Below, piece after piece: positions 13,458 to 63,891 of a DNA stretch of 64,000 bases. Every line of letters begins with the position of its first letter. Positions within the stretch are counted from its first letter, which is position 1. The notes below the pieces were generated by a model. The model saw only the letters and a list, made by a program, of their open reading frames with translations. It had not been told where the DNA came from and did no database searches. The stretch comes from an uncultured Verrucomicrobiota bacterium. Lineage in GTDB: Bacteria > Verrucomicrobiota > Kiritimatiellia > CAIQIC01 > Lenti-01. Both the position numbers and the translations under genes were made by a program. The DNA is taken from contig CALMBO010000029.1 in the NCBI GenBank assembly GCA_937860055.1, positions 1-64,000 of the forward strand. The letters are read 5' to 3'.

Positions 13458-13487
13458 TAGACTAGAGACAATAGACCACAGACTATA
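13458..13487. repeat. left heptanucleotide array (4 units, GACNANA on + strand)
   Basis: gactaga gacaata gaccaca gactata at 13460-13487; reverse complement matches the right array. Confidence 0.85.
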
Positions 13488-13509
13488 GCCTGAAGAATGG
13501 GGGCGTTCA

Positions 13510-13884
13510 CTACCTGAGCTCGCTGTCGATTTGTTTTTCAACCGTGCGGATTAGGCCGGTCAGAACCTTGGAAACTTCGTCTGCCTGAAGGGATAACCGC
13601 ACATGTGCATCGTCTTTTAAATAGCTCAATCGCTGGGAAAGGTGAATGAAATAGGCAACCTCCGAGGCTGAACCACGGGCGATATACAGGAAGTGAAGAT
13701 AGTCCTTCCGGGAATTGCGGGAAGCACCTTCCGCAATGTTGGCCGGGATGGAATAGGCGGATCGCCGCAACTGACTCGTCAACGAATAGGCTTCCTCTTT
13801 GGGAAACGACCGCGAGACTTCATACAGGGCCACGGTCAAATCGTCCGCCTTCTGCCAAGCCAAAATGTTCTTATAATTCCGCAT
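13510..13884 (-). CDS. four-helix-bundle protein (23S rRNA intervening-sequence/S23, Avd-like family)
   Basis: MRNYKNILAWQKADDLTVALYEVSRSFPKEEAYSLTSQLRRSAYSIPANIAEGASRNSRKDYLHFLYIARGSASEVAYFIHLSQRL is diagnostic for this family. Confidence 0.95.
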   Translation of the reverse strand: MRNYKNILAWQKADDLTVALYEVSRSFPKEEAYSLTSQLRRSAYSIPANIAEGASRNSRKDYLHFLYIARGSASEVAYFIHLSQRLSYLKDDAHVRLSLQADEVSKVLTGLIRTVEKQIDSELR

Positions 13885-13895
13885 GTTTTTCTTTC

Positions 13896-13958
13896 GTCTC
13901 TGGCCCCTGGTCTTTGGTCGGTAGTCTATGGTCTGTGGTCTCTAGTCTGTTGTCTTCT
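13896..13958. repeat. right heptanucleotide array (9 degenerate units, GTCTNTR on + strand)
   Basis: gtctctg gcccctg gtctttg gtcggta gtctatg gtctgtg gtctcta gtctgtt gtcttct read at strict 7-nt period. Confidence 0.88.
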
Positions 13959-46333: not shown

Positions 46334-47521
46334 TCACTTCTGCCACTTGGCTTCGAATCTTCTGGTCCCGGCATCCCATGCCGCCTGGAGCAAGGCTTTG
46401 TTCACTCCCCAAAACGCCCCCAGTACACCGAGGAAGCGGGATTGGATGCGCCGTCCGGCGAGAAACGACAGGCCGCTGATTCCGATTCCCGCCGCCAGCC
46501 CGGCAAAAAGAGCCTTGGCCACCCCGCCGCCTTTCCACGCCATGATTCCCGCCGAACCGAACATCAGCAGGACCATAAACGGCGTCCACAACCTCAGGTA
46601 CTTGTGGGAGAGCCATTGGAACCAGACCGGATTCGCAAAAACAGAATAGATGGAGGGCTCTAATTTCCCCAATTGCCAGATTCCCGCCAAGGTCCGGCGC
46701 TTCCGGATGCCTTCCTGGCCGAAACGGGCGGAGGGCAGGTCGAACGCGCGCGCGTCCGGCTCGAAAAGACATCGAAACCCCGCCAAAACCGCCCGCATGG
46801 GAATCAAGACGTCATCCACCAGGGTGTTTTCCGGAATGGGCCGGCACAGTTCCTTCCGGATCGCATAGAGCGCGCCGGTCGCGCCCGGAACCGCCCAGAA
46901 ACGGCTTTCGCACCGCCGGATGAACTTCTCGTATCCCCAGTAGGATTCCGCCCCCTTCTGCGCCCCGCCCTCCGCCGATTCATAGACCAGCGCCCCCGAC
47001 ACCACTCCGACCTGGGCATCCGCAAAATTCTCCAGCAGCCGGGAAATCGCCCCTTCTTCCACCCGCTGCCGGGCATCCATCATCACCAGGATCGGCTGCG
47101 CCGCCTTCTCCATCAGCTTGTTCAACACCGCCGCCTTGCCCCGGCGGCGGTCGAAATCGAGAATGTGGATCGAAGGTTGAAGGTTGCCGGTTGGAGGTTG
47201 CAGGTTGGCTCCATCCTGAATTCTGAATTCTGAATTCTGAATTCTCTCCTTGGCCAGCTCTCCCGTCCCATCCGTGCACCCATCCAGCCCGATCCAGATT
47301 TCGCGGATGGGTTCGCTCTTCGCCAGGGCCAGCAGGTTCTCCAGTTTCCGCGGCAAGGTGGCGGCTTCGTTGTGCGCGGCGATCAGCACCGAAACGCCGC
47401 CCTCGAACCTCCCCTTTCCCGCGGGCCGGCCCCGAAGCCCCGCCAGCAGCCAGATCAACGCGGGATATCCCGCATAGGCGTAGGCGAGAAGCGCGACGGA
47501 AATGGAGAACACGATCCACAT
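46334..47521 (-). CDS. membrane GT2 glycosyltransferase carrying an in-frame heptanucleotide-repeat insertion
   Basis: VSVLIAAHNEAATLPRKLENLL...IWIGLDGCTDGTGELA...FDRRRGKAAVLNKLMEKAAQPILVMMDARQRVEEGAI; C-terminal TM segments; insertion ERIQNSEFRIQDGANLQPPTGNLQPS. Confidence 0.9.
   Translation of the reverse strand: MWIVFSISVALLAYAYAGYPALIWLLAGLRGRPAGKGRFEGGVSVLIAAHNEAATLPRKLENLLALAKSEPIREIWIGLDGCTDGTGELAKERIQNSEFRIQDGANLQPPTGNLQPSIHILDFDRRRGKAAVLNKLMEKAAQPILVMMDARQRVEEGAISRLLENFADAQVGVVSGALVYESAEGGAQKGAESYWGYEKFIRRCESRFWAVPGATGALYAIRKELCRPIPENTLVDDVLIPMRAVLAGFRCLFEPDARAFDLPSARFGQEGIRKRRTLAGIWQLGKLEPSIYSVFANPVWFQWLSHKYLRLWTPFMVLLMFGSAGIMAWKGGGVAKALFAGLAAGIGISGLSFLAGRRIQSRFLGVLGAFWGVNKALLQAAWDAGTRRFEAKWQK
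47176..47243. repeat. two adjacent heptanucleotide arrays (GTTGNNG x5 and CTGAATT x4) inside CDS
   Basis: gttgaag gttgccg gttggag gttgcag gttggct (47176-47210), ccatc, then ctgaatt x4 perfect (47216-47243). Confidence 0.95.
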
Positions 47522-61764: not shown

Positions 61765-63891
61765 TTACCAGTTGGCCAGGAATCGCTTGATGATCGGCTC
61801 CCAACCCAGCAGGACCGGCGCGATGACCAGCGCCACCACGCTCATCAGCTTCATCAGGATGTTCAGCGAGGGACCGGCCGTGTCCTTGAAGGGATCACCC
61901 ACGGTGTCGCCCACCACGGCTGCCTTGTGCGACGGCGACCCCTTGCCGCCATGCGCACCACCTTCGATGTGCTTCTTGGCGTTGTCCCAGCAACCGCCCG
62001 CGTTGCTCATGAAAAGCGCCATCAGCACGCCCGAGGCCGTCACGCCCGCCAGCAAGCCGCCCAGCATCTCCTTGCCGAACACAAAGCCGACCAGCACCGG
62101 CGTCAGGATGCCCAGCAGCGCCGGAACCGTCATCTTCTTGATGGCGGCCGCCGTGGAGATGTCCACGCAACGGGCGTAGTCGGCCTTGGCGCCTTCCTTG
62201 CCCTCAAGCAGCCCCGGGATCTCCTTGAACTGGCGGCGCACTTCCTCGACCATGGCAAAGGCCGCCTTGCCCACGGCCTTCATCGCGAAGGCCGAAAACA
62301 GGAACGGCATCATCGAACCCACCAGCAACCCGGCCATGACCTTGGGATCCGTCACGTCGATAACCTTCAGGTCCACGATTTCGCGGAACGCCGCAAACAG
62401 GGCCAGCGCCGTCAACGCCGCCGAACCAATGGCAAATCCCTTGCCGATGGCCGCCGTGGTGTTGCCCACCGCGTCGAGCTTGTCGGTGCGCTGCCGGACT
62501 TCCTTCTCCAGATGCGCCATCTCTGCCAGGCCGCCCGCGTTGTCCGCGATCGGCCCGTAGGCGTCCACCGCCAGCTGGATGCCGGTCGTCGCCAGCATGC
62601 CGAGGCCGCCCATGGCGATGCCGTAGAGGCCCGCGAAGTAGTAGCAGGCAATCGTCGCCACCGCCAGCACCACCACCGGTGCCGCCGTCGAAATCATGCC
62701 CACGCCCAGGCCCGCGATGATGTTCGTCGCCGCGCCAGTCTCGGAGGAATCGGCCACCCCGTTGGACGGCCCCTTGCCTTCCGCCGTGTAGTACTCGGCC
62801 AGCAGGCCGATGATCGCACCCGCCACCAGGCCCACCACCGTCGCCAGGAACACGCCGCCGCTCGTGCAGGTCAGCAGGCCCGCGCCGGCCACTGCCGATT
62901 CAATGTTGAATTCGCCCGGCAGCATCCGGTTGCAGATGAAATACGTCGCCACGGCCATGATGAGGCAGGCGCCGAACGTACCCTGGTTCAGGGCCGCCTG
63001 CGGATTGCCTCCCTCTTTCGTCCGAACGAGAAACGTCCCGGCGATGGAGAAGAGGATGCCCGCGCCCGCAATCACCAGCGGCAGCAGCACGAAGGTCATG
63101 TCCCGGACGCCGTTGACCGTGATCGTCGCACCCAGCACCATGGCCGCCACGATCGCGCCCACGTAGGATTCGAACAGGTCGGCGCCCATGCCGGCCACGT
63201 CGCCCACGTTGTCGCCCACGTTGTCCGCGATGACCGCCGGGTTGCGGGGGTCATCCTCGGGAATCCCGGCTTCCACCTTGCCGACCAGGTCGGCGCCCAC
63301 GTCCGCCGCCTTCGTGTAGATGCCGCCACCCACGCGCGCAAACAGCGCGATCGAGCTGGCTCCCATCGAGAAGCCCGTGATGATGGGTAGCACCGAGGCC
63401 TTGACCGCCTCCACATCCGCGCCAAACTTGCGAACCAGTACCAGCATGGTCAGCGCCAGCCCCGTCAGGCCCAGGCCCACCACGCACATGCCCATCACCG
63501 CCCCTCCCGAGAACGCCACCTGCAGGGCCGCCGGAAGACCTGTCCGCGCCGCGTTGGTCGTCCGCATGTTGGCGGCCGTCGCCACCCGCATCCCAAAGAA
63601 CCCCGACAGCGCCGAACAGAACGCGCCGAACATGAATGCCAGCGAAACCAGCCGGATGGCCCCCTGATTGATGATGGCCAACAGGACGGCCAACAGCACC
63701 ACCACCAGCGAGAGAACCTTGTACTCGCGCTTCAGGAACGCCATGGCGCCCTCGCGGACCGCCGCGCCGATCTCCAGCATCCGGGCCGTCCCCGGATCCT
63801 GCTTGTTGATCCATTGCGTCTTCCACCAAGCGAACAACAGCGCCACCAACCCTGACCCCAATGCCGCGTACAGCAGCTTGTCGATGTTCAT
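61765..63891 (-). CDS. hppA: membrane-bound ion-pumping pyrophosphatase (K+-dependent type by signature)
   Basis: [99 protein letters not shown]...[28 protein letters not shown]. Confidence 0.97.

Follow-up and report, generated by a model that had tools for sequence, protein, structure and literature searches.

Two tandem arrays of unlike heptamers lie in frame within a glycosyltransferase (GT2) gene of an uncultured Verrucomicrobiota bacterium, and our analysis of the window (the whole 64,000-nt stretch of DNA under study) and of related genomes suggests that they are the remnant of a DNA element, both widespread and seldom described, and not an on/off switch. We consider it probable that they derive from a heptamer-armed element resembling the intervening sequences (IVS) of 23S rRNA genes, as a partly decayed, ORF-less copy or as a by-product, and that they are tolerated in a permissive loop of the enzyme. 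The loop is unconserved in sequence, is modelled with low confidence, and bears other heptamer arrays in four relatives; elsewhere, genes for the 23S rRNA intervening-sequence protein (IVP, or S23p) are bracketed by complementary heptamer arms, and paired arrays without such a gene recur in the source genome. The sequence-only reading, which had proposed either a phase-variable contingency locus or a tolerated insertion of a dispersed heptamer, is partly supported by these results; it had overlooked that an IVP gene lies 34 kb from the GT2 insert in the same window and that such arms are usually paired and complementary.

The GT2 gene (46334-47521, minus strand; Pfam Glycos_transf_2, E = 2.2e-16) codes for a membrane-anchored protein of 395 aa. 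As the sequence-only reading described them, GTTGNNG x5 and CTGAATT x4 are both in frame in the gene (47176-47243), between the segments DGCTDGTGELA and FDRRRGKAAV, where they encode ERIQNSEFRIQDGANLQPPTGNLQPS. All features of the insert are given here on the minus strand. The 5' arm (47216-47245) is built of four GAATTCA units, equivalent to CTGAATT on the plus strand and perfect over 28 nt (47216-47243). A spacer of 5-6 nt, depending on the register (47210-47215, TCCATC on the plus strand), separates it from the 3' arm (47175-47209), which comprises five CNNCAAC/AACCTNC-type units (GGTTGNN on the plus strand) and whose coding strand is C-rich (GC skew -0.68). The GC content across 47170-47245 is 46%, versus 63% for the window. 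In a calculation that treats bases as independent, a perfect 28-nt heptamer array is expected by chance about 7e-8 times in 64 kb of the same composition. With only the short spacer between the arrays, the insert holds no S23p/IVP (PF05635) ORF, and pairing between its two arms is absent (complementarity score 3, matched by 195 of 200 shuffles). A hairpin role in the GT2 mRNA of the source genome was considered and is unsupported (RNA fold z = -0.78).

The entire heptamer-built stretch (47170-47251, minus strand) encodes approximately residues 92-117, which in an AlphaFold2 model fall between a helix (residues 86-95) and a strand (residues 117-123). The model is of good overall confidence (mean pLDDT 82), with a drop to about 51 at residues 101-110 and to below 50 at residues 108-112; the modelling that had been proposed for this loop returned low confidence exactly there, and the array-encoded segment is predicted to be a disordered surface loop. 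In distant orthologues from Planctomycetota and Omnitrophota a simple turn is found at this position, and the nearest solved structure (PDB 6yv7) has 16 residues fewer in the aligned stretch, in agreement with the earlier remark that GT2 relatives possess only a short loop. Conservation of the peptide in distant orthologues, which the sequence-only reading had raised as an argument against itself, is absent. Most likely, the insert occupies a permissive loop in which nearly any peptide can be accommodated.

Of the 16 other genomes examined from the family, 14 possess an orthologue of the GT2 gene. Period-7 arrays occupy the loop in 5 of 16 orthologous sequences, the window included (0/500 shuffles in each case). 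The window copy combines GAATTCA with AACCTNC, G010 and G013 carry AGACYAG followed by its inverse, G012 carries GGGCAGA followed by TGCACCC, and the second GT2 copy of G003 carries TCAATAT; the remaining 11 sequences have loops of 17-36 residues without arrays. Since the loop bears other heptamers or none in orthologues, its peptide is not conserved. That the two heptamer families are unrelated, as had been claimed, is true of the window copy, but in G010, G012 and G013 (L023, L024 and L026) the two arrays complement each other (0/200 shuffles each), and the RNA of the G010 loop is predicted to fold with -68.9 kcal/mol (z = -5.9). Both G010 and G013 have an IVP element in the neighbouring operon, at a distance of 1.1-1.4 kb from GT2, with arms made of the heptamer that also occupies the loop, AGACYAG. 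Parsimony requires two changes on the tree to explain the loop arrays, and the tree is compatible both with several insertions and with a single one followed by turnover. Alignment of orthologues, which had been put forward as a means of defining the insertion boundaries, distinguished arrays from ordinary loops but yielded neither a target-site duplication nor an exact boundary at the GT2 loop, because the native loop is itself variable in length.

The IVP gene of the window (13510-13884, minus strand; PF05635/TIGR02436, four-helix bundle, E = 5.3e-37 in Pfam and TIGR02436) is flanked on the same strand by a 5' arm of AGACCAN-type heptamers (13896-13956) and a 3' arm of GTCTNTR-type heptamers (13458-13491), and these arms are mutually complementary (score 21, 0/200 shuffles). 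The element lies between the permease and the ATPase genes of an ABC transporter. The gap between these two genes, containing arms and ORF, measures 522 nt in the source genome (G000), 832 nt in G010 and 624 nt in G013, while in G008 (L163) the site is empty and the genes are 19 nt apart. With a PF05635 ORF, complementary arms and a vacant orthologous site, positions 13458-13956 constitute a heptamer-armed IVP element. A paralogous ABC operon of the source genome (L170, G000 C13, approximately 89217-89444) harbours, at the equivalent junction, another IVP gene whose heptamers are not those of the window element. The source genome has five IVP genes, all of them outside its 23S rRNA genes.

Of 38 relatives, 35 contain matches to PF05635, the largest number in a single genome being 16; none of 14 control genomes has a match. 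Arms were analysed around 61 IVP genes, all but one from Verrucomicrobiota relatives that had been reached via the window's own lineage search. Using a threshold of 16 of 21 that was fixed after examples had been seen, period-7 arrays were identified in the 150-bp flanks on the 5' side of 32 of 61 genes and on the 3' side of 27 of 60, versus 0-6 of about 60 in bins that were larger and lay farther out. The 5' arm finds its best match in the complement of its own 3' arm in 35 of 60 elements, where about one is expected (mean score 23.6 for the own partner versus 10.6), and the heptamer itself varies from element to element. The 5' arms are the more purine-rich in 35 of 44 elements (p = 4e-6), with a positive GC skew in 36 versus 5. 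When neighbouring genes were called crudely by their longest ORF, those upstream ran in the direction of the IVP gene in 45 of 60 cases and those downstream in 44 of 59. A set of 30 IVP genes from Omnitrophota replicates the pattern, with arrays in 18/30 and 19/30 flanks and the own partner ranked first in 21/30; this set and the arm-partner ranking represent independent checks on the period-7 test. Planctomycetota IVP loci display the arm pattern by eye. As judged from these sequences, IVP genes thus appear to be associated with heptamer arms; in the literature searched (preprints and most subscription papers being outside its scope) no paper joins IVP genes located outside rRNA with such arms. 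Period-8 arrays were also seen beside IVP genes (6/61 and 6/60) and almost never elsewhere; it may be that some IVP elements are armed with octamers or with mixtures of the 7/14 type.

Heptamer arrays are not confined to IVP genes. In 464 kb of the source genome, a sample that includes stretches picked for their hits and whose period-7 density is therefore not unbiased, 22 arrays of period 7 were counted versus 5 in one block-shuffled copy; periods 4, 5, 8, 10 and 11 were at or near shuffled counts. Several heptamer families recur, mostly in intergenic regions, and at least one further array lies inside coding sequence; together with the orthologous loops that bear other heptamers or none, this favours the earlier suggestion of a tolerated insertion of a dispersed heptamer. 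Outside the window insert, three paired arrays without an ORF were seen in the source genome, and in two of them (L138 and L155) the arms are clearly complementary. An ORF for a fused solute-binding protein/permease (L156:14244-17639, minus strand) contains an in-frame heptamer pair encoding SIQNSGFRIQN, a peptide nearly identical to that of GT2, and another array is present further upstream in the same open frame. The in-gene array pairs show the purine polarity of IVP arms. The words of the GT2 insert are themselves weakly enriched in IVP arms (GAATTCA, 1.9x) or not enriched (AACCTNC, 1.1x), these ratios being calculated without a formal background. Common heptamer words are weak proof of kinship, as enrichment in IVP arms is limited to some families and does not extend to AACCTNC. 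A short 12-mer tandem, GTCGCCCACGTT, is found at 63183-63225 of the window.

If the GT2 insert belongs to the same class, its architecture would be that of elements carrying IVP/S23p: 5' and 3' arms of tandem heptamers, usually complementary, with a polarity along the transcript such that the 5' arm is purine- or G-rich and the 3' arm C-rich. It would have arrived as an insertion, either here or in an ancestor, after which slippage, replacement and mutation would have swapped heptamers and brought pairing in the window copy to an end, with the avoidance of stops in all three frames as the sole constraint on change within GT2. We infer the link to IVP elements from the existence of ORF-less pairs, from the common purine polarity and from the AGACYAG heptamer common to loop and neighbouring element in G010 and G013. 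Against it stand the window insert's want of an ORF and of pairing arms, and the scant enrichment of its words among IVP arms. A resident reverse transcriptase (RT) is unlikely to be required for the spread of the element: an RT domain is present in 17 of 38 genomes, and none was detected in the IVP-rich G017, G020, G021 and G025, all as represented by incomplete assemblies, so that an RT partner as a necessity is disfavoured.

The main rival to a decayed element is plain local slippage, whereby two short heptamer seeds would have grown by polymerase slippage where the permissive loop allowed it, without any contribution from a mobile or IVS-type element. Over-representation of heptamers is a general feature of bacterial simple repeats, and footprint slippage of the polymerase has been proposed as the cause in the available text of PMC4692102. 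The non-complementary arms of the window copy fit this explanation, as does the great variation of array length among orthologous IVP sites: the left (5') AGACYAG arm of G010 (L159), for instance, has several times the length of its counterparts in G000 and G013. However, slippage alone accounts neither for paired, often complementary arrays at one and the same loop in several species nor for the complementary arms that bracket IVP genes, and we regard it as unlikely, albeit a competitor to be taken seriously.

Considerably less plausible, judging from the sequences compared, is a contingency locus in which the number of CTGAATT units would toggle the glycosyltransferase by frameshift. GT2 genes are common targets of phase variation. 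The unit length is not divisible by 3, and the frameshift foreseen by the sequence-only reading is confirmed by computation: a change of -2, -1, +1 or +2 units places the first stop after 175, 130, 182 or 137 residues, respectively, instead of 395. The number of heptamers upstream of Coxiella S23p also differs between strains (2 versus 3 units; PMC4990558). Among the loci compared here, the gene is identical in L023 and L068 and again in L025 and L069, and neither pair counts as independent. Nevertheless, the units are few (four perfect ones, next to a degenerate second array); full-length orthologues keep the functional motifs yet bear different heptamers; and comparable arrays are mostly intergenic, where they are unable to switch a frame. 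In L023 and L026, moreover, units due to read GAC-TAG in frame read GAC-CAG, GAC-CGG or GAC-CAA instead, which holds the frame open, albeit in a small sample. A functional peptide, selected for example for acceptor or partner binding, is scarcely credible and was rejected: the gene remains open and the insert is in frame, but the loop peptide differs in every orthologue unless the heptamer is shared, gives way to a simple turn in distant ones, and coincides with the lowest core confidence of the model.

The GT2 insert as a tolerated relic of a heptamer-armed element would have implications that go beyond the gene itself, for which the practical message is modest. Role and origin have been called unexplained both for the S23p/IVP family and for the over-represented bacterial heptamer repeats (PMC4990558 and the available text of PMC4692102 and PMC4679880). 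Joined together, they become one testable object, namely a gene within complementary heptamer arms together with its ORF-less relatives, and they outline a route by which new coding sequence may enter protein loops. A 7-nt unit is read in all three frames, and therefore only stop-free units survive within genes. We further propose, tentatively and with less confidence than we place in the reading of the GT2 insert, that IVP/S23p genes belong to a widespread class of mobile or selfish elements that would be defined by complementary arms of element-specific heptamers, act at the RNA or DNA level, insert co-directionally into operons and repeatedly leave ORF-less copies in coding loops, in Verrucomicrobiota, Planctomycetota and Omnitrophota at least. 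The 23S rRNA IVS would then occupy one niche and be a special case of a dispersed element.

Among known systems, the 23S rRNA IVS of Coxiella burnetii and Leptospira (PMC4990558) resemble the IVP elements described here in their complementary arms and in a sense-oriented S23p/IVP ORF for a four-helix bundle. The Coxiella IVS, with its complementary termini, S23p ORF and upstream GACAGAT heptamers in strain-variable number, also shares with them the tandem heptamers just before the ORF; its origin was left open by the authors, earlier proposals being a transposition remnant or a mobile element (PMC4990558). The IVP elements studied here differ from 23S rRNA IVS in that they are sited in protein-coding operons. 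The GT2 insert departs further, since it lacks an S23p/IVP ORF, has non-complementary arms and is located in the coding sequence of a protein gene rather than in a 23S rRNA helix from which RNase III removes IVS, whereas the orthologous inserts L023, L024 and L026 are like IVS in the complementarity of their terminal arms. Short IVS without an ORF are also known, for example in Salmonella. MITEs and REPINs combine terminal inverted repeats with target-site duplication and a cognate transposase in the genome; here the boundaries are blurred by slippage. The IVP fold is related to that of Avd, the accessory protein of diversity-generating retroelements (DGRs), and PF05635 is described as Avd-like and common in DGR-related neighbourhoods (PMC10053308). 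The IVP of the window nevertheless scores far below the NCBIfam Avd cut-off (29 bits against 80; E = 1e-6), and DGRs have a cognate RT, whereas many IVP-rich genomes show no detected RT. In the accessible part of PMC10910872, the 23S rRNA IVP appears in a figure on novel associations of CRISPR adaptation modules; the association may be genuine, or array callers might be misled by short tandem arms.

Dispersed heptamers have been reported as TAACTGA in Beggiatoaceae, cyanobacteria and Bacteroidetes (PMC4679880) and as GGGAATC/GGGGAYT in Xanthomonas and Nostoc (PMC4692102). The TCAGTAA-type arms of one IVP element (L102, G019) resemble the Beggiatoaceae repeats. A connection between heptamers and IVP/S23p was not found in the available text of either report. 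As far as that text goes, these repeats, including the cyanobacterial STRR, are like the arrays described here in being short, built of 7-base units and mostly intergenic, sometimes within ORFs; they differ in that one unit dominates each genome, whereas here each element has its own unit and complementary paired arms bracket an IVP gene. Finally, SSR contingency loci share with the GT2 insert an in-frame repeat in a glycosyltransferase gene with a unit that is not a multiple of 3, but the insert differs from them in its few units, its two unlike arrays and the degeneracy of its units.
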